Below are positions 7,372 to 21,324 of a stretch of 44,443 nucleotides of DNA, piece by piece. Positions within the stretch are counted from its first letter, which is position 1; every line of letters starts with the position of its first letter. The notes under the pieces were generated by a model. The model saw only the letters and a list, made by a program, of their open reading frames with translations, made no database searches and was not told where the DNA came from. Source of the stretch: a bacterium. Lineage in GTDB: Bacteria > Chloroflexota > Dormibacteria > Aeolococcales > Aeolococcaceae. The translations under genes were made by a program, and so were the position numbers. The stretch covers positions 1 through 44,443 of the forward strand of contig JACWAJ010000013.1 of NCBI GenBank assembly GCA_014874355.1, in the 5' to 3' direction.

Positions 7372-9696
7372 CTAAAGCCGGGCGGCGGCAATCGCAGCCT
7401 GGCCGTAACTGATGCCGCCATCGTTGGCCGGCACCAGTTGATTGATGAAAACCTCGAACCCTCCTGCTCCAAGCGTATCGAGAAGCAGGCTTGTCAGGGT
7501 ACGGTTTTGGAACACCCCGCCCGACATGCAGACGATCCCGGTGCCGCCTTCAGCCCGGATCCTCTCGCACACCGCGAGGGTGACGGCAACGATCGTGTTG
7601 TGGAACCGCACGGCCACTCCGGCGACATCGGCATGGTCAGCGACCGCCTCCAATACGGCAGCCAGCGTGGGCCGCACATCGTAAACGGTGAGATCTCCCG
7701 CCGAGGTCAACGTCCAGGGCAACTCTCCACCCACTCCCACCGCCGCACTGGCCTCGAGTTTGATAGCAGCTTCGCCCTCGTAACGGTTGTCGTCGCAAAC
7801 GCCAAGCAGGCTCGAAACCGCGTCAAACAGTCGCCCGGCACTCGAAGCCCTGGGGCTGTTCACCCCCCGATCCACCATCTGGCGCACAACTTGGGTTTGG
7901 CGATCGTCCAGCCTGTCGGTGAATCCAGCAATCAGCTCGGGATCGAGCTGCCAGTCGCCACCCGGAGCCTCGACGCCAAAGAGATAGCCCAGCGCCATGC
8001 GCGCCGGATGTCTGACGGCTGCCGCGCCTCCCGGCAGTGGCGCCGTGGCAAACCGGGCCACGCGCCGGTAGCCGGCAAGGTCTGCCACCAGAAACTCCCC
8101 GCCCCAGAGAGTGCCGTCGTCGCCCATCCCCAGACCGTCGTAGGCAATGCCGATGAACGGTTGCGTGATGCCGTGTTCGGCCGCGCACGAAGCGACATGC
8201 GCGTGGTGGTGCTGCACCCCTATCCGGCGGTCGGCGGGAAACGCGCGCATGGCGTACTGGGTCGAGAGGTAGCCCGGGTGCAGATCGTAAACGGCCATCT
8301 CGGGCTCGATGGCCTGCACCTTTGAGAGATGTTCGAGGTTGCCAAGGAACGCCACATTGGTGTCGGCGTCTTCCAAATCGCCGGTGTGAGGGCCGACCAC
8401 CGCCCGGCCACCCTCGGCCAGGGTGAACGTGTGCTTCAACTCGGCCCCCACCGCCAGCAGCGGAACCGGCGTCGCCTCCGGCAGCACCAGGGACTCGGGT
8501 GCATAGCCGCGCGCACGACGTATGACAGTGGAACGACTCCGAACAACCCGCGCCACGGAGTCGTCGTAACGCGATCGAATGGGCCGATCGTGCTGCAGAA
8601 AGCCGTCGGCGATGCCTTCAAGACGTTCAATCGCCACGGCATCGTCGATCACGATCGGCTCGTCGGATCGGTTACCGCTGGTGAACACCAGCGGTGCACC
8701 GAAGTCGTGAAGTAGTAGGTGGTGAAGTGGCGTGTAGGGCAGGAACAAACCCACCTCTCGAACTCCCAGATGAACGCCTGGAGCCAGCTCAGTACCATCG
8801 CAAGCTTCGAGCAACACGATCGGCCGTGCCGGCGAGGTCAGCAATCCGGCTGCCTCCGGCCCGATGATCGCAAGGTGTGATGCCGCATCGATGTCGCGCA
8901 CCATCACCGCCAGCGGTTTGGCCTCGCGACGCTTGCGCTGTCGCAACCGTTGCACCGCTGCCTCATTGGTTGCGTCGCACGCCAGTTGGTAGCCACCAAT
9001 CCCTTTCACTGCAACGATTTGGCCTTGACGCACCGCCCCTATTGCTGCCTGTAATGCGACGTCGTCAGCCGCCACACAACCTGCATACGTCCACGACAGT
9101 CGCGGACCGCACTCCGGACACGCGACCGGCTCTGCATGGAAGCGACGGTTGGAAGGATCTCCGTATTCCGAAGCACAGGCCACACAAAGATCAAATGCAC
9201 GCATGACCGTACGACCGCGGTCGTACGGCAGTTCGTCGATGATCGTGGCCCGAGGACCGCAATTGGTGCAGTTCAGGAATGGGTACCGGTAGCGACGGTC
9301 CAAAGGATCGAACAGTTCACGCAGGCAGTCGTCACACGTAGCGATGTCCGGCGGAATGTCGTGTGCTCCTCCCGGCTCCAGAGCACTGTCGACCACCTGA
9401 AATCCCGATCCGGCAACCGGAACCGGCCCATCGGACGCAACGACTTTCACCGCGTCGACACGCGCTCGCGGCGGTGCCATCGTCCGCAACTGATCGACGA
9501 ATCGGTCGAGTACCTGCGATTCGCCAAGCGCCTCAACGACAACCCATCCACCCGCGTTGCGGACCGACCCTTCGATACCCAGTTCGTTGGCAAGCCGGTA
9601 GACGAATGGCCTGAAACCAACGCCCTGCACAGTTCCGCTCACTTCGATGCGACGGACGATGCGATCACCCCCATCGACACGCACCCCAATCGTCAC
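7372..9696 (-). CDS. hypF: Carbamoyltransferase HypF
   Basis: Uses carbamoyl phosphate and ATP to carbamoylate HypE, the first step in CN-ligand synthesis for NiFe hydrogenase. The 774-residue product is full length and has all four parts in order: acylphosphatase domain (about 14-105, with VQGVGFRPFVYRLA), two CxxC zinc-finger pairs (about 120-215, ending in CPECGPRLSW), a YrdC-like domain (about 220-400, KGIGGYQLACDATN) and a Kae1-like domain (about 410-774) with the metal-binding HHHAHVASCAAEHG and a C-terminal NDGGISYGQA. Start GTG 9696. It is the first hyp gene after a 130-base gap holding two hairpins. No hydrogenase structural genes and no hypA/hypB are in the window. Confidence 0.97.
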   Translation of the reverse strand: MTIGVRVDGGDRIVRRIEVSGTVQGVGFRPFVYRLANELGIEGSVRNAGGWVVVEALGESQVLDRFVDQLRTMAPPRARVDAVKVVASDGPVPVAGSGFQVVDSALEPGGAHDIPPDIATCDDCLRELFDPLDRRYRYPFLNCTNCGPRATIIDELPYDRGRTVMRAFDLCVACASEYGDPSNRRFHAEPVACPECGPRLSWTYAGCVAADDVALQAAIGAVRQGQIVAVKGIGGYQLACDATNEAAVQRLRQRKRREAKPLAVMVRDIDAASHLAIIGPEAAGLLTSPARPIVLLEACDGTELAPGVHLGVREVGLFLPYTPLHHLLLHDFGAPLVFTSGNRSDEPIVIDDAVAIERLEGIADGFLQHDRPIRSRYDDSVARVVRSRSTVIRRARGYAPESLVLPEATPVPLLAVGAELKHTFTLAEGGRAVVGPHTGDLEDADTNVAFLGNLEHLSKVQAIEPEMAVYDLHPGYLSTQYAMRAFPADRRIGVQHHHAHVASCAAEHGITQPFIGIAYDGLGMGDDGTLWGGEFLVADLAGYRRVARFATAPLPGGAAAVRHPARMALGYLFGVEAPGGDWQLDPELIAGFTDRLDDRQTQVVRQMVDRGVNSPRASSAGRLFDAVSSLLGVCDDNRYEGEAAIKLEASAAVGVGGELPWTLTSAGDLTVYDVRPTLAAVLEAVADHADVAGVAVRFHNTIVAVTLAVCERIRAEGGTGIVCMSGGVFQNRTLTSLLLDTLGAGGFEVFINQLVPANDGGISYGQAAIAAARL

Positions 9697-9754
9697 GCAA
9701 GTGATGATACCGAGACCAGGAGTCCCTCAAGCAGATCTATAGCTTTGCCGCGAA

Positions 9755-9771
9755 GGCGGGCTTTGCCCGCC
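9755..9771. terminator. GC-rich hairpin upstream of hypF
   Basis: Inverted repeat with 7-bp arms GGCGGGC (9755-9761) and GCCCGCC (9765-9771) around a 3-base loop. It lies 58 bases upstream of the hypF start and downstream of the acyl-CoA mutase gene. No U-run follows on either strand, so it may be a Rho-assisted terminator, a processing site or a leader element for the hyp genes. Confidence 0.4.
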
Positions 9772-9795
9772 GCAAGCCGGCTCCGCTTACCCCCA

Positions 9796-12418: not shown

Positions 12419-13084
12419 CTATTCGAGCCCGGCCACCCGGATGCGAGCGTCAACCACCACTGCGCGATCCTCGGTCACCATCACCGGATTGCAGTCCAGC
12501 TCGGCGATTTCCGGCAGGTCGGAAGCCGTGTGGTACACGGCGGTATAAATCAGCAGGACCGCATCGACGTCGCCACCCGCGGCCACGGCGGTAACCGCTC
12601 TGGCGAAGGTCTCCTCGTTGGCAGCCGACCCCAGGTCCACCGGGTTCTCGGTGGCCACCGCCCCCAGCTCCCGAAGCTCGGCCTGGACGGATCCGGTAAG
12701 CGTGGGGAGCTGTAGCCCAGCGGTGTCTGCGACATCGGCGGCGAGGATTGCCATCCCCCCGGCGTTGCTGACCACGGCCAGCCGGTTGCCGCGCGGCAGG
12801 GAGAGGTGCGACAGCAGTGTGGTCGTGGCAAAGAGCTCATCCAGCGTCCGAACGCGGATGACGCCGGTTCTCTCGAAGATCGCGTCGACCAGCGCATTGG
12901 GTTCGGCCACGGCGGCGGTGTGCGATCCAGCGGCCCGCTGTCCGGCAGCAGAACTCCCCGACTTCAGCGCCAGCAGTGGCTTGCACAACGAAAATTCGCG
13001 GGCCACGCGTCGAAACGTACCCCACACCCCCGCAGAAGTAACTTGCACGACAGGTTCCGTGGCGTACCATGCCTCAAGAACGCC
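12419..13084 (-). pseudogene. Remnant of an ADP-forming acyl-CoA synthetase / Pat-like protein
   Basis: The frame encodes pieces of the NDP-forming acyl-CoA synthetase family: KSGSSAAGQRAAGSHTAA, then a stretch typical of the second CoA-ligase domain (RLAVVSNAGGMAILAAD, ENPVDLG), then a jump near 12544-12520 from LLIYTA directly into the family's extreme C-terminus (SDLPEIAELDCNPVMV). The CoA-binding N-terminal domain and most of the ATP-grasp domain are missing; intact members exceed 700 residues, while this frame offers at most about 275 and its first part overlaps the control region and start of the divergent LCP gene. There are no internal stops, so a small protein may still be made. It lies 20 bases before meaB. 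I read it as a gene with a 5' loss plus an internal in-frame deletion. Confidence 0.7.
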
Positions 13085-13090
13085 AGCGGA

Positions 13091-13135
13091 GCGTGCACCG
13101 GCGTGCACCGCCCCACTAGGGGGCCACACGCCCCC
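13091..13135 (+). promoter_or_regulatory. Tandem 10-bp repeat and GC hairpin before the LCP gene
   Basis: GCGTGCACCG occurs twice head to tail (13091-13100 and 13101-13110), each copy containing the palindrome GTGCAC. It is followed by a hairpin with arms GGGGGC (13119-13124) and GCCCCC (13130-13135). The pair ends 22 bases before the LCP start at 13158 and sits between divergent transcription units, a usual place for an operator or leader structure. No convincing -35/-10 pair was seen. Function is inferred from position only. Confidence 0.35.
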
Positions 13136-13157
13136 GTCATCAGTACGAGAACCGTTC

Positions 13158-14207
13158 ATGCGAGAGACTTCGAAACCTCGGCGAAAGCGGGCTAGTAATC
13201 CGCCCAAGATGCGCCTTCGCCGGCGCATCGGCCTGGGGCTGCTCATCGTCTTTGGGTTCGTGCTCTCTGGCGGGATCGGGGCCGGCAGCTACTACTTCTC
13301 CACCGCACTCGTGGCCCTCAAGATCACCGGCCAGAAGGTGGGGTCGATCGCAGCGCCATCGCCAAACCCAAATGGAGGGCGGACAGCCACACCCGCGCCG
13401 GCGACCCCGCCACCGGCGCCTGACCAGCCCTTCACCATCCTCCTGCTCGGGTCCGACAATGACGCCAAATTCAGCGGTGGTTCTCTGCTCACGCAGTCGA
13501 TGATCCTGGCGCGAGTCGATCCCGTGAGCCGGAAGGTCACCATGCTCTCGATTCCGCGTGACCTCTACGTACCGCTGTATTCCGGTGGCACCGATAAGAT
13601 TGACAAGGCCTACGCCTACGGCGGCGCCGACTCCGCCATCGCCACGGTCGAGATGGACTTCGGCGTACACATCGACCACTACGCCTGGATCGGGCTCCAG
13701 GGTTTGACCAACCTCATCGACAAAGTCGATGGTGTCGACGTCATCGCCAGCAACCCCGTCCTTGACGACTACTATCCCGCGGATATGTCGGGCTCCAACC
13801 CCTACGACTTCGAGCGGGTTTGCGTACTGCCAGGAGCACAGCACATGACCGGTGCCCAGGCACTCCAGTACGTCCGCTCCCGCCACGGCGACCTCCGTGG
13901 CGACTTCGGCCGGTCGTTCCGCCAGCAGCAGGTCCTCCTGGCGCTGCGCGCCAAGGCCAAGGCGCTTACCTATGCCGACATCCCCGATGTCGCCGCCGCC
14001 ATCCAGAGCGACTTCAAGACCGACGTCGGCATCACCGATGTGGGTTCGCTGATGCCACTGGCCGGTAACATCTCGCTCGACAACGTCACCCAGGTGGTGC
14101 TGCTCCCGCCCTTTACTCGGGGCCAGATGATCGGCGCCCAGGACGTACTCATGCCCAACTGGGACCTGATCCTGCCCGAAGTCCATAAGTACTTCCCCGC
14201 AACATGA
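13158..14207 (+). CDS. LytR-CpsA-Psr (LCP) family glycopolymer transferase
   Basis: LCP enzymes attach undecaprenyl-phosphate-linked glycopolymers to peptidoglycan outside the cell. The 349-residue protein has a basic cytoplasmic tail, one membrane anchor (about 19-45, LGLLIVFGFVLSGGIGAGSYYF), a Pro/Ala/Thr-rich linker, then the LCP domain with ILLLGSDND, SIPRDLYVPL, a DKIDKAYAYGG segment, HIDHYAWIGLQG and the arginine-rich YVRSRHGDLRGDFGRSFRQQ. Start ATG 13158 keeps the charged tail; ATG 13209 is possible. The stop overlaps the ATG of the following gene, so the two are coupled. A second LCP protein is encoded 3.6 kb away on the other strand. Confidence 0.92.
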   Translation: MRETSKPRRKRASNPPKMRLRRRIGLGLLIVFGFVLSGGIGAGSYYFSTALVALKITGQKVGSIAAPSPNPNGGRTATPAPATPPPAPDQPFTILLLGSDNDAKFSGGSLLTQSMILARVDPVSRKVTMLSIPRDLYVPLYSGGTDKIDKAYAYGGADSAIATVEMDFGVHIDHYAWIGLQGLTNLIDKVDGVDVIASNPVLDDYYPADMSGSNPYDFERVCVLPGAQHMTGAQALQYVRSRHGDLRGDFGRSFRQQQVLLALRAKAKALTYADIPDVAAAIQSDFKTDVGITDVGSLMPLAGNISLDNVTQVVLLPPFTRGQMIGAQDVLMPNWDLILPEVHKYFPAT

Positions 14208-16318: not shown

Positions 16319-17788
16319 CTAGTTGGTTGAGTTTCCGTTGAGATTGTTGAATGCGTGTTCTTCGTCGGCGCCAAGGATGACGGTAACACCGCGCACCTGC
16401 AGAGACGTCGTCACCGTCTGTTTGGGAGGTGATGGCGCCGGCAGCGTGGTCACCTTAACACCAAAGTAGTTTGCCAGCCACTTGGCTGTGGCCGCGTACT
16501 TGCCGCCACTGTTGTCGATCACCTGGGTGGTCGCCGACAGCGCCACGGGACCGCCATCGGTCGTAGTCAGGCCAAGCCCGTTGAAGATGCTCCCCCACCG
16601 TGCCGATGCGCCCAGTTGCATAGCACTGCCGTCCTGAATCGTAACCGGCGCCTTCTCGTTCAGCGCGGCAGGATCGACGAAAACGCCCTTGACGAAGTGC
16701 CACAGCGAGGCCAGCGTGCGGTCATGCGCATAGAGGTAGTAGGCGCCGCAATTGACCGGATAGCCACATTCGTAGAGGAAGTTGGTGTCGGCGAGACTGA
16801 CGTGTTCCACCGTGGCCGGATCAACATTCTTGACGAGTTCGTAGAGTGCCTTCATGTCATCCACTTTGAGGTCGGTGGAGACGTTGTCCCCCAGCGCGCC
16901 GAGCAGATCGGGCAAATGTCCCAGCCCCCCAATGCTCAGCACCTTCTGCTTGAGCGCGGCAACCACCAGCTGCTGTCGGGCGCTGCGGGCAAAGTCCGAC
17001 CCCTCGCCGTTATTGCCATGCCGGGAACGCGAGAATATCAGTGCTCGGGTTCCATCCATGTGCTGAACTCCGGCAGTGAAGCTCGCCACCATGAACCCGC
17101 AGTTGGAGTTATAGCCTCCACATTCGCCGGCCGGGTATTGGTAGTCGGTAAACGTCCGCGACACGTTGACGTCAACGCCTCCCACCGCGTCGACTGCCTG
17201 CTTGAAGGCATCGAAGTCGACACCCACGTAGTGGTCGATGTGTATCCCCAGCAGGCCCCCTACGGTGGGATTGGCCACCGCAGCGCCGGCGCCGGGTTGA
17301 TCTGCCGGGACCGGTCCCTCGTTGTTCATTCCAGCGGCATACGCGAAATTGACGCGCTGGTTTACGACCTGGCCGTTCTTCAGGGATATCGGCACGTACC
17401 AGTCGCGAGGAATGGAGATCTCGGCCACCTCAGGCGGAAGGCCACCACTCCGCGGCTGGAGCGAAACCACCATGATCGAGTCGGTAAGGTACGCCCCGTC
17501 GTGCCCCACACCACCGTAACCGTAGACCGCAATATTGATACGGCTGAGATCCTGGGCCTTGGCCTGGACCGCCGAACCCTTGCCGCCGCCAATCAGTTCA
17601 CCGACAACCTGAAAGGGGTTCTCGTGAGTCAGCTTGGCAAGCGGGGCAATCACCCTAAACGCGTAGGTGCCCCCTACCGCGACAGTCGCCAGTGCCACCA
17701 TCGCCACTATCCGCTTCGTCGTCAGCCAGTTTGGCCGCAGGTTGTAGCGGGAGCGGCGGCGCCGCCGTGGAATTATCGTCGTGACCAT
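16319..17788 (-). CDS. LytR-CpsA-Psr (LCP) protein with C-terminal LytR_C domain
   Basis: Second LCP-family glycopolymer transferase, 489 residues. A basic tail (IIPRRRRRSR) precedes one membrane anchor (about 28-50). The LCP domain (about 85-290) shows INIAVYGYGG, DSIMVVSLQP, SIPRDWYVPI, IHIDHYVGVDFDAF and FSRSRHGNNGEGSDFARSARQQ. Residues from about 385 to 475 look like a LytR_C domain, a small module often found after LCP domains. The four cysteines in the middle (GECGGYNSNCG and ECGYPVNCG) may form exported disulfides. It is divergent from the 477-residue gene at 18013 and precedes pfp. Confidence 0.93.
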   Translation of the reverse strand: MVTTIIPRRRRRSRYNLRPNWLTTKRIVAMVALATVAVGGTYAFRVIAPLAKLTHENPFQVVGELIGGGKGSAVQAKAQDLSRINIAVYGYGGVGHDGAYLTDSIMVVSLQPRSGGLPPEVAEISIPRDWYVPISLKNGQVVNQRVNFAYAAGMNNEGPVPADQPGAGAAVANPTVGGLLGIHIDHYVGVDFDAFKQAVDAVGGVDVNVSRTFTDYQYPAGECGGYNSNCGFMVASFTAGVQHMDGTRALIFSRSRHGNNGEGSDFARSARQQLVVAALKQKVLSIGGLGHLPDLLGALGDNVSTDLKVDDMKALYELVKNVDPATVEHVSLADTNFLYECGYPVNCGAYYLYAHDRTLASLWHFVKGVFVDPAALNEKAPVTIQDGSAMQLGASARWGSIFNGLGLTTTDGGPVALSATTQVIDNSGGKYAATAKWLANYFGVKVTTLPAPSPPKQTVTTSLQVRGVTVILGADEEHAFNNLNGNSTN

Positions 17789-18012
17789 TGAAACGAAGCG
17801 TAGTCCTCGGCCGTACCGACCCTTAAGTCAGAGTGGCAGACCCGTGGCAGAACGCCAGCGGCGCTGTCGTGGTTGACCCTGAGCTTGGACGTAGAGGTGT
17901 GACGTAGAGGTAAACCTTGCGAAGCCGCTTTAGGTTACATCAGGCCGGCGTCAGTGGCACACCCACAGGGGCAAACCCCTTGTCCGCCCCCTGTCCGTGA
18001 TGCTGCTTTAGC
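17789..18012. promoter_or_regulatory. Divergent intergenic region with 11-bp direct repeats
   Basis: Gap of 224 bases between two divergent genes. It holds GACGTAGAGGT twice, at 17888-17898 and 17901-17911, a 13-base period, and a TTGACC at 17873-17878 that resembles a -35 box but lacks a good -10 at the right distance. Direct repeats at about one helical turn are typical of regulator or response-regulator sites; here this is inference from spacing alone. Nothing resembling an RNA gene was seen. Confidence 0.35.
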
Positions 18013-19446
18013 ATGACGAGCATGGTCGGCTACCTTTCTTCCAACTCAGTCCGCCACCTGGCCGGTTTAGCGACTAGCCTGCCAACGATAGCCCGGTTTG
18101 TCGACGAGAACTGGCCAGGAGCGACACGGGGGAGTTCCAAACTCGAATTCGTGGCCGGACATCCAGATGACGGAAAACCATACCGGCTGCAACTCATCGC
18201 ATCCCGGGTGCTCGGCACCGCGGGGGGTAAGCGCGTCACCTGGACCCAGGCTCGCGTTATCGCGAACTTCAAGAATGACGACCCGCCAACGCCAGAGATG
18301 AAAGCCGAGGCCGAGGCCGAGGTCGAACAGGTGGTGAGCGCACTGGAATCGCGGTTGAAGCGGGACGTCCCCGTCGAGTTAGTGCAAGTAACCCGCCAGA
18401 AACCTGAATTACAAGCACCAGTGGTGCGCCTGGCCCACATCGCCGGTCAACACCTCGGCAAGCCCCAACTCTTTGAAGAGTTGCAGCAAAACGGAGCCTG
18501 GAGCGGGACCATCCGCAATGAATCCGGCGTCAAACTCAACATCCAGCTCCAGCTGGTCAATGCGATCGACGAGTCCAGCAAACAGTCAATCCGGATCGAT
18601 TGCGCCATCGACGGCGAGGATCTCGCGAAGATTGGGGAACGCAAAGCCCATGTGATGTGCGAAGCGGAGGCGGCAAAGCTCTTTGGCAGCATCGAGAAAC
18701 AGCTGCACTCCAGAGCCACCCGTGTGAGCACCGCCCACGTCACAGCCAGTCCCCACCAGCTTGAACCCACCTTTTATGACGTACCGGGTGCTCTCGACGG
18801 TCTCATCGGCCTCACCGCAGGACAGCGCTATCTGATCTGGGGACAGGAACACCGCAAGTTCATCGAGTTCCCTGATACCGCTACGCGAGCGGTCATAGAG
18901 GTGTCGCTGGCTCCAGTTGAGGATGGCCGCCTCGAGGCATCGGTCAGCGTCGAGTTGCAGCGCCTAGGCGCTACTCGCGCCAGTTTCCCGCCTGAAGAAC
19001 TGGCCAACTGGCAGAGCCAGGCCGACACCATCGCCGAGGCGCTACGCCAGCGCGCCGCCCAGGAAATGACGGCACCATCGTTTTCCATCCATGCGCCCAA
19101 GGCAGCGGTAAACAACCAGATGCGGCAGCAACTCACAGAGTGCTTTCCCAACGATGCGGTGTCCGCCACGGACACCGGTTTTGACACCCAATACTTCGCC
19201 CTTGCCGAGGGGGTATTTGGCAAACTCGAAGTCGATATCACATCGATTAGCGAATTCGAGACCCGGGTGACCTTTCGTGGAGATCTCACCGGTTACATGT
19301 TGCCCGCCGCGACAGATGAACATACTCAATCACGACGCGCATTCCGCGACACCATCGCCAGGTCGGCAGCGGAAATCCGCAATGAGTTGATCGCCACACT
19401 GTCGCCGGTTCTGCCGCCATCCCGCCCGGACGCCGGTTTGGAGTAG
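18013..19446 (+). CDS. Uncharacterised protein of four similar alpha/beta modules
   Basis: I do not recognise this 477-residue protein. There is no signal peptide or membrane segment, so it is probably cytoplasmic. The same pattern recurs about every 115 residues: a beta-strand pair followed by a long amphipathic helix. Matching strands are YRLQLIASRV (about 57-66), KLNIQLQLVNA (174-184), RAVIEVSLAPV (292-302) and GKLEVDITSIS (403-413); matching helices are about 95-117, 214-235, 327-351 and 440-464. Sequence identity between modules is low. No catalytic motif was found. The start ATG 18013 has no clear ribosome-binding site; ATG 18022 is also possible. It is flanked by a divergent LCP gene and a convergent peptidase gene and is alone on its strand. 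Confidence 0.7.
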   Translation: MTSMVGYLSSNSVRHLAGLATSLPTIARFVDENWPGATRGSSKLEFVAGHPDDGKPYRLQLIASRVLGTAGGKRVTWTQARVIANFKNDDPPTPEMKAEAEAEVEQVVSALESRLKRDVPVELVQVTRQKPELQAPVVRLAHIAGQHLGKPQLFEELQQNGAWSGTIRNESGVKLNIQLQLVNAIDESSKQSIRIDCAIDGEDLAKIGERKAHVMCEAEAAKLFGSIEKQLHSRATRVSTAHVTASPHQLEPTFYDVPGALDGLIGLTAGQRYLIWGQEHRKFIEFPDTATRAVIEVSLAPVEDGRLEASVSVELQRLGATRASFPPEELANWQSQADTIAEALRQRAAQEMTAPSFSIHAPKAAVNNQMRQQLTECFPNDAVSATDTGFDTQYFALAEGVFGKLEVDITSISEFETRVTFRGDLTGYMLPAATDEHTQSRRAFRDTIARSAAEIRNELIATLSPVLPPSRPDAGLE

Positions 19447-19460: not shown

Positions 19461-20900
19461 TCAGCCCAGATGCCGCGGCTCCACGGCCGGTTTAACCTGC
19501 GCAACTCCCATGCGCTCAGCAATGCGACTGTACAGCCGGGCGAGGATGCGCACCCCGCGAAATAGCTGGGCGACATCGACGGTCTCATTGGGGCCGTGCA
19601 TCCGGCCATCCGGCAGACCCATGCCAACCAGAACCGCCGGCGCCTTGAGCACTTTTTGCAGCACCGTCACTGCCGGGATCGAGCCGCCCTCACAGGTGAA
19701 AGCAACCGGCTTGCCAAAGACCTCGGCCATCGACTCGGCAGCGGCTTTCATTGCGGGATGTTGCGCGTCAATCGACACCGGCTCACCCCGGCTGACCTCA
19801 CTCACCGACACTCGCACCCCGGGAAGCCGCTTGGCCACCGCATTGACATGATCGGTAACCAACTTCGAGATCCGGGCCGGATCCTGGCCTTTAACCAAAC
19901 GGCAGCTGAACTTCAGCACCGTGCCGGTCGGAATGATTGTCTTGGCTCCCTCACCCTGGTAGCCGCCCCTCTCACCGTGGTATTCAAGCGTCGGCCAGAA
20001 CCAGATCCGTTCCAGTGTGCTGCGCTTGGCGTCTCCCAGCAGGCTGGGGACATCGCCGGCATGTTTTTTGAACCGATCGGCATCAAACGGCAGCCGGGCC
20101 AGCGACTTGCGCACCGCCGGGGTCAACTTGGCAATGCCATCGTAGAAGCCCGGAACCTTCACCTCGTGGGTGAAGGGGTCCATCAGCGAGTTCATGATCG
20201 CAGCCTTGGCGTTGAGTGGATTCTCGACACTGCCGCCATACTCGCCCGAGTGCAGTTCGTGTTTGGGGCCTGAGATCTTGATCTCGAAGTAAACGAGGCC
20301 GCGCAGGCTGACCGACAGGCTGGGCACACCACGTTCGAACATGGTGGTGTCGGAAACTAAAACGACATCCGCGCGAAGGCGCTTGCGTTCCCGCCGCACC
20401 AGCGCCTCGAAGTGGTCCGAACTGATCTCCTCCTCGCCTTCGGCAAGGAACTTGAAGTTGACCGGCATCTCGCCGTTCACCTTGAGGTGCGCCCGGAGTG
20501 CCTCCAGATGCATGAGCAACTGGCCGTCGTCGACACACCCTCTGCCGTACATCTTTCCGTGCCGGATGGTGGGCTCGAAAGGATCGGTCTTCCACTGAGA
20601 AAGATTGCCTACTGGTTGGACGTCATAGTGGCCGTAGATCAGCACCGTTGGCAGGCTTGGATCGACTATGCGCTCGGCATAGACGGCAGGATGCCCACCC
20701 GTGGACAGAACCTCGGCGTGAGTACAACCGGAATCGCGAGCCAGTTGGGCCAGTTTCTTCGCAGAGCGGACCATGTCCGCACGGTGTTCGCGCTCCGCCG
20801 AAATGGCGGGGATACGCCTCCACTCGGTGAGTTCCGCAAGAAAGCGTTGGCGGTTCTGCACGTTCCGAACGTATCGATCGAGATCGGTAAACCGACCCAT
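19461..20900 (-). CDS. M20/M25/M40 family metallodipeptidase
   Basis: Zinc peptidase of the dipeptidase branch of M20 (carnosinase/ArgE-DapE relatives), 479 residues. Metal-binding and catalytic motifs: YGHYDVQPV, GRGCVDDGQ, the general-base pair in AEGEEEI, and HELHSGEYGG in the dimerisation domain; the C-terminal histidine lies in GRMHGPNE. The ATG at 20900 has AAGGGAA 7 bases upstream; a TTG at 20924 was not chosen. Substrate is unknown; such enzymes cut Xaa-dipeptides or release N-acyl groups. It is divergent from the small cysteine-rich gene and convergent with the four-module gene, so it is probably transcribed alone. Confidence 0.92.
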   Translation of the reverse strand: MGRFTDLDRYVRNVQNRQRFLAELTEWRRIPAISAEREHRADMVRSAKKLAQLARDSGCTHAEVLSTGGHPAVYAERIVDPSLPTVLIYGHYDVQPVGNLSQWKTDPFEPTIRHGKMYGRGCVDDGQLLMHLEALRAHLKVNGEMPVNFKFLAEGEEEISSDHFEALVRRERKRLRADVVLVSDTTMFERGVPSLSVSLRGLVYFEIKISGPKHELHSGEYGGSVENPLNAKAAIMNSLMDPFTHEVKVPGFYDGIAKLTPAVRKSLARLPFDADRFKKHAGDVPSLLGDAKRSTLERIWFWPTLEYHGERGGYQGEGAKTIIPTGTVLKFSCRLVKGQDPARISKLVTDHVNAVAKRLPGVRVSVSEVSRGEPVSIDAQHPAMKAAAESMAEVFGKPVAFTCEGGSIPAVTVLQKVLKAPAVLVGMGLPDGRMHGPNETVDVAQLFRGVRILARLYSRIAERMGVAQVKPAVEPRHLG

Positions 20901-21084
20901 GGATGAAATTCCCTTATCTGGCAACTGGGCTCGATGTCGAGAGTAATCACATCACAGGGACGTCGGACGCCCAATTCTTGGGTGAATTTTTCGCCTCGCA
21001 TTGTCCCTTTGCTGTCCGCGTGCCCCTGCTAGCCTAAGTCTTGCCGTGAGACACAGCGACGCCTCGAGAGAATGGGAGAACACG
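20901..21084. promoter_or_regulatory. Divergent promoter region between peptidase and cysteine-rich gene
   Basis: 184 bases without a convincing gene. For the plus strand, TTTGCT (21008-21013) and TAGCCT (21030-21035) are spaced by 16 bases and could serve as -35 and -10 boxes, a weak match. A GGGAG lies 6 bases before the ATG at 21085. Nothing structured was noticed. Confidence 0.25.
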
Positions 21085-21324
21085 ATGGCTGAAGAGCACC
21101 AGTGCAAGGGTACCTGCGGCGGAGCTTGCAAATGCGGCGGGCACGGACACGACAAGCCCCAGCCCGCAGCCAAACCGAAGCTACCGGCTCGCACCAAGCA
21201 CTGCTTGCTCCGTACGCTCAAAGGCGGTTGCACGCAGTTGCCCAAGCGCTGCTGGCGGCAAAAGCTGACCGGTCACTGTGCCAAGCAGCCCACGAAGAGC
21301 GTCCCTAGCCGCCAAATCCAGTAG
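21085..21324 (+). CDS. Small cysteine-rich, probably metal-binding protein
   Basis: A 79-residue basic protein with eight cysteines in two groups of four: C7, C11, C15, C17 in CKGTCGGACKCGGHGH, with adjacent histidines, and C41, C50, C57, C65 in the second half (CX8CX6CX7C). A Pro/Lys-rich linker joins them. The count and spacing suggest zinc or iron binding in each half, but I know no family with this pattern. The start is supported by GGGAG 6 bases upstream; the frame opens earlier (21001) without a ribosome-binding site. It is convergent with rnj, the stops being separated by only 12 bases. Confidence 0.65.
   Translation: MAEEHQCKGTCGGACKCGGHGHDKPQPAAKPKLPARTKHCLLRTLKGGCTQLPKRCWRQKLTGHCAKQPTKSVPSRQIQ

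Follow-up and report, generated by a model that had tools for sequence, protein, structure and literature searches.

A lineage-restricted orphan protein that may be an array of four reduced helix-grip modules

Analysis of a 44,443-nucleotide stretch of DNA (the window) revealed a gene whose product, judged by sequence comparison, belongs to a new lineage-restricted family: one genome carries two paralogues, and no further member turned up in the sets searched. Predicted structures suggest that the building block of this sequence-orphan family is probably old as a fold, its four-fold arrangement being the unusual part, and we consider it likely that the window protein is built of four helix-grip modules. 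The binding or carrying of a hydrophobic ligand would be its most likely function, with protein-protein scaffolding a close rival. The full reading, a new lineage-restricted family with four reduced helix-grip modules in one soluble chain that would act as a four-site carrier or scaffold, falls slightly short of an even chance.

The gene, its two neighbours and its upstream region are arranged as follows:

18013..19446, plus strand: gene for the putative four-module protein (ATG start, 477-aa open reading frame; coding evidence from GC by codon position and from a paralogue)
16319..17788, minus strand: divergent neighbour, LytR-CpsA-Psr (LCP) family gene (Pfam PF03816, E 5.9e-33)
19461..20924, minus strand: convergent neighbour, M20-family dipeptidase gene (Pfam PF01546; NCBIfam NF006053 above cut-off)
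17888..17911, plus strand: putative control element, an exact 11-bp direct repeat, GACGTAGAGGT, with two copies at 17888 and 17901

The open reading frame at 18013-19446 is a real gene. Its GC content at codon positions 1/2/3 (0.649/0.458/0.695) shares the pattern of five neighbouring genes (0.639-0.690/0.433-0.458/0.727-0.844), with third-position GC below that of all five. A second full-length copy of 480 aa, 42-43% identical, is encoded in the same genome on contig C68 (L003:7595-9037), and the identity is spread along the full length (57/111, 42/115, 44/119 and 54/114 residues in modules 1, 2, 3 and 4, respectively, with module 1 counted over residues 8-118); the preservation of a 477-codon reading frame in two copies that have diverged supports a real gene well. 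The original prediction of a cytoplasmic protein fits the absence of any membrane stretch (maximum 19-residue hydropathy, 0.88). Of 31 listed family relatives, only one (1.4 Mb, 68% complete) has a smaller genome than this one, which spans 1.45 Mb in 76 contigs at a stated completeness of 98.8%; among 60 listed relatives none shares its genus.

In a first search for relatives of the window protein in 61 genomes, its own genome was the sole match. A two-row profile likewise matched only this genome among 400 sampled genomes of the phylum and, among 110 genomes of the class (the two sets overlap), this genome and one chance-like candidate at E 0.07; the latter, in genome G011, was rejected as chance, covering only 54 profile positions and containing an internal stop. 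Scans of GTDB 220 (two) and IMG/VR (one) with short exact peptide patterns, which detect close relatives only, yielded no relative of the window protein, and neither did tblastn against plasmids and phages. Comparison with family databases bore out the earlier statement that no known family is evident by sequence. For the window protein, Pfam returned up to E 1 only unrelated sub-threshold matches to DAP (0.14) and DraK_HK_N (0.18), NCBIfam had no match up to E 0.1, PHROGs gave two weak unknowns, and phmmer found nothing among PDB chains at E up to 10; for the paralogue, Pfam had no match up to E 0.1 and PHROGs none.

As first described, the gene stands alone between two neighbours, of which the LCP gene is divergent and the M20 peptidase gene convergent. 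The paralogue has an IMPDH-like gene on one side and a tRNA-Ser gene on the other; the two settings have nothing obvious in common, and in the part of the neighbours that was scanned no single family is represented next to both genes. Relatives in the family reach 63% identity to the neighbouring LCP protein, and those of the IMPDH-like gene reach 71% across almost all of its length and 76% across a part, indicating that neither contig is foreign. An LCP match at E 1e-20 or better is present in 31 of the 32 family genomes (in a few of them it only reaches the strength of a second LCP gene), and the M20 neighbour is matched in 27 of the 32, own genome included in both counts. We compared 20 loci around LCP (L066-L085) and 20 around M20 (L086-L105), several of which reach a contig end: LCP was present in 20/20 of the former, together with PFK in 16/20, and M20 in 20/20 of the latter. 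Among open reading frames of at least 80 aa in these 40 loci, none matched the two-row profile (lowest E 0.55, for an LCP gene), and the regions downstream of the IMPDH-like gene in 20 loci (L106-L125, with L106 and L120 stopping short) gave no match either (lowest E 0.58). Because no profile-matching reading frame was found in the relatives' LCP, M20 or IMPDH-like loci, it seems that the two paralogous genes were either inserted or have evolved very fast in this lineage.

Two reading frames of similar length (475 and 481 aa) in the IMPDH-like loci were rejected as orthologues: they are 80% identical to each other and unrelated to the family, and encode what we take to be an ATPase. Fewer than 800 bases downstream of the paralogue lie two tRNA-Ser genes (gct and tga), at L003:9042-9134 on the minus strand and 9696-9788 on the plus strand, the first of them tail to tail with the paralogue at a distance of 5 bases. 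In the window, a second LCP-family gene (12618-14207, plus strand) is located about 2 kb from the one at 16319-17788, on the opposite strand, and several family genomes carry two LCP matches 2-4 kb apart on one contig. A small reading frame at 21001-21324 (plus strand) has a Cys/His-rich middle, HQCKGTCGGACKCGGHGH, and is possibly metal-binding; it had no NCBIfam match up to E 0.1.

The gene had also been credited with a repeat-bearing control region. One short 11-bp direct repeat is indeed present, its copies starting 13 bases apart within the 224 bp that separate the orphan gene from its divergent LCP neighbour, but it is not common to the paralogue, being absent from L003, the contig on which the latter lies. 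This repeat length was reached in 1/1000 shuffles of the upstream region and in 8 of 395 half-overlapping stretches of the same size in the window, those covering GACGTAGAGGT counted; this second figure, together with the absence from L003, gives the repeat little weight. Promoter and terminator scans revealed nothing beyond shuffles, and Rfam had nothing at gathering scores.

Structure prediction divides the window protein into four candidate modules:

18046..18366, plus strand: module 1, residues 12-118 (half model; 10-residue block pLDDT 58-89 over 11-120)
18367..18711, plus strand: module 2, residues 119-233 (half model)
18712..19068, plus strand: module 3, residues 234-352 (whole model, low confidence; block pLDDT 33-66)
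19069..19410, plus strand: module 4, residues 353-466 (whole model, low confidence; block pLDDT 43-76 over 351-460)

AlphaFold2 was run on a two-row alignment for the whole protein (pLDDT 53.7, pTM 0.28) and for residues 1-236 (the half model; pLDDT 72.5, pTM 0.50); modules 3 and 4 come from the weak whole-protein model alone, and the two models share one sequence and are not fully independent. The first strands are predicted to start at residues 12 and 124 in the half model and at 237 and 356 in the whole model, and each is followed by a helix, three to five strands and a long helix. Module 1 is predicted to comprise strand 12-17, helix 19-33, strands 38-41, 45-49, 57-70 and 73-86, and the long helix 94-118; module 4, strand 356-359, helix 363-377, strands 383-387, 392-397, 404-411 and 417-424, and the long helix 435-463. 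Module 3 would contain strands 237-244 and 248-250 (short), helix 258-264, strands 273-275, 282-285, 291-301 and 307-319, and the long helix 327-350. Module 2 is predicted as strand 124-128, helices 136-148 and 153-160, strands 162-168, 174-182 and 192-199, and the long helix 209-231; it thus has three strands after its helices as against four in the other modules, and the whole model places a helix (121-129) where the half model has the strand 124-128.

The original prediction of four repeated modules about 115 residues apart therefore agrees with the predicted structure, in which the spacing is 112, 113 and 119 residues, but is not demonstrable from the sequence, which repeats no better than shuffles or decoys. 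In an ungapped self-comparison, the two-row profile scored 23.75 at best, compared with a median of 20.5 and a top five of 26.25-28.5 in 60 shuffles, and none of the six module pairs compared by hhalign beat the best of 12 reversed-module decoys (P 0.089 versus 0.034). The two best diagonals of the self-comparison, although not significant, pair equivalent elements, namely the long helices of modules 1 and 3 and the second strands of modules 1 and 2.

Fold comparison by VIA-align and Foldseek, with 50 matches listed per result, suggests that the modules are not a new fold, as modules 1, 3 and 4 match solved helix-grip/TBP-like domains at middling confidence. In the whole model, VIA-align matches to module 4 span about residues 351-469 and include the Lam4 StARkin domain (5yqj_C; residues 352-464, Z 10.6, 108 aligned, 2.6 Å), Flpp3 (Z 10.0) and Rv2186c (8jmy_A; Z 9.7, 109 aligned of a 117-residue chain, 3.5 Å). 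Module 3 matches Ara h 8 (4m9b_A; residues 239-354, Z 9.4, 114 aligned, 2.9 Å) and many other Bet v1/PYL/PR-10/cyclase chains over about residues 233-356. In the half model, the top match of module 1 is the KA1 domain of Kcc4p (3osm; Z 9.5, 97 aligned, 2.5 Å), followed by spermine synthase (Z 9.3), Lam4 StARkin (5yqj_B; residues 4-122, Z 8.5, 103 aligned, 3.2 Å), Ara h 8 (4m9b_A; residues 4-122, Z 8.4, 108 aligned, 3.8 Å) and the N domain of BamC (Z 8.4); KA1, StARkin, PR-10 and BamC chains cover residues 2-125. Most of the Z values lie little above 7-8, the range that the tool calls common.

Modules 1 and 3 share Ara h 8, and modules 1 and 4 share Lam4, as matched entries. These common matches stand in for a superposition of the modules, leaving out module 2, and point to a known fold with internal repetition rather than a single known fold without symmetry. 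The proposed new family holds for the sequence, with two paralogues in one genome; the fold does not look new. By Foldseek, di-domain aromatase/cyclases and BamC rank near the top for both models, a Mediator chain (7nvr_l) is the first match of the whole model and YwmB ranks second for the N-terminal half. The long Foldseek superpositions are loose (rmsd about 10-21 Å) and do not fix how the modules are arranged. No TBP chain is among the 50 matches listed in each fold comparison, which excludes nothing.

In another reading, shallow two-row models have produced the repeat and the fold as artefacts, and the protein has some other arrangement or a new fold. Low-confidence models can yield spurious fold matches, and the scores of both models, whole and N-terminal half, are compatible with this explanation, as is the lack of a repeat at the sequence level. 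From rank 9 on, the Foldseek results for the whole model also contain unrelated folds (fluorescent proteins, PAS/GAF proteins and a DNA polymerase clamp). Nor do the long helices show measurable amphipathicity: their hydrophobic moments were reached by 290, 980, 119 and 423 of 2000 shuffles for modules 1-4, and of eight helices only helix 19-33 stands out (24/2000). Amphipathic character would be expected of a helix that packs on a sheet, so these weak moments speak against packing, although bends could blur the signal. Against an artefact, one fold class is reached from separate segments, and many of its chains are among the 50 listed matches of each VIA-align result. We regard an artefact as unlikely, if a serious contender.

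If the modules are as predicted, the window protein would be a soluble cytoplasmic chain in which a reduced helix-grip module of about 115 residues occurs four times in a row. Each module would open with a strand and a short helix, followed by a small antiparallel sheet against which the long C-terminal helix packs. Helix-grip proteins often bind hydrophobic ligands, and a hydrophobic small molecule or lipid may be held between the sheet and the long helix of the modules. The protein could then serve as a multi-site carrier or buffer, in line with the proposal for the single-domain protein AhfA (PMC9671496). Two observations count against this: the scanned neighbours name no lipid pathway, and the best-scoring match of module 1 is to a KA1 domain and not to a START protein. 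Strand positions facing inward are more often identical between the paralogues (42/72) than those facing outward (24/72); inward positions were assigned by hydrophobicity, so that a plain structural core would produce this bias too, which fits a ligand-lined core and a plain core alike. Granted the fold, ligand binding by analogy would be possible, at somewhat less than an even chance, and the complete explanation, a four-module helix-grip protein that binds or carries a hydrophobic ligand, is tentative and well below an even chance.

The modules could instead bind partners through their sheet or helix surfaces, without an internal ligand, and make the protein a protein-protein scaffold. The tandem helix-grip protein BamC and KA1 domains have roles in partner contacts, and the small size and low strand number of the window modules fit KA1/BamC, as do the Kcc4p top match of module 1 and the BamC matches given by VIA-align and Foldseek for both models. 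Arrays of small modules suit scaffolding, and some outward strand residues (e.g. W77, Q79, R81, K404, E406 and R418) are kept in both paralogues. However, outward strand positions are overall the less conserved, and the neighbours scanned offer no shared family as a candidate beside both genes. Scaffolding is on this evidence also doubtful. That the protein is instead a nucleic-acid-binding or regulatory protein of TBP-like architecture, using an open sheet face as TBP does in binding, is improbable: the beta-alpha-beta4-alpha order and the Mediator chains among the matches of both models favour it, but the protein is net acidic (50 K+R against 62 D+E; 50 against 59 in the paralogue), which is unusual for a DNA binder.

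Comparison of the preferred carrier reading with known systems begins with the Bet v1/START group (SRPBCC, StARkin; Ara h 8, Lam4, PYL and aromatase/cyclases), in which a sheet grips a long C-terminal helix. An antiparallel sheet gripping such a helix is predicted, at middling confidence, in modules 1, 3 and 4, which align with these proteins over most of their length. The window modules differ in size, about 115 residues compared with 140-180 in most matched chains, and in standing four in tandem without a Pfam match. In SRPBCC and classic START proteins, the pocket has a seven-stranded sheet whose first strand is followed by two short helices. In the low-confidence models, which may miss strands, we count five strands and a short one (7-9) in module 1, four in module 2, five and a short one (248-250) in module 3 and five in module 4, and two helices after the first strand appear in module 2 only. 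No SRPBCC profile matched either paralogue in Pfam or the window protein in NCBIfam, and the protein is therefore not filed in SRPBCC; at most it works on a similar plan. To our knowledge, no helix-grip protein with a four-module array has been described. A search of one open-access literature library gave no paper on four tandem SRPBCC domains.

Closer in size is Rv2186c of Mycobacterium tuberculosis (PDB 8jmy and 8iha; chains of 116-129 residues), called a polyketone cyclase in the title of 8iha, for which Foldseek gave a TM of 0.53-0.58 by Rv2186c length. It is a single module, with 11-14% identity to the window protein in the matches listed. AhfA (DUF2505, PF10698) of Corynebacterium glutamicum is a helix-grip protein without a secretion signal, predicted to be cytoplasmic, that is needed for normal mycolic acid synthesis and proposed to be a lipid carrier (PMC9671496). 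AhfA and the window protein have in common a helix-grip fold, predicted for the window protein, and a predicted cytoplasmic location, and AhfA has one domain. PF10698 matched neither paralogue and none of the 32 family genomes, own included; in 14 control genomes it matched two, C. glutamicum and Thermus composti.

In module size, the nearest likeness is to BamC, KA1 and YwmB, and full-length BamC, which holds more than one helix-grip/TBP-like domain, is among the top Foldseek matches of both models. TBP-like and small helix-grip domains have a beta-alpha-beta4-alpha order in about 100-115 residues, an order predicted in modules 1 and 4, in module 3 with an extra short strand and not fully in module 2. 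Neither Pfam (both paralogues) nor PDB sequences (window protein) gave a BamC, KA1 or TBP-like match. For most readers, an orphan protein with a probable fold would be a modest addition, and, if the reading is true, a case of a sequence-orphan family with an old fold. BamC, a lipoprotein of the envelope, and KA1, a domain associated with kinases, have one or two modules rather than four; in the window protein, the helix-grip fold would have been reduced and multiplied into a four-module array, compared with the one or two copies known.
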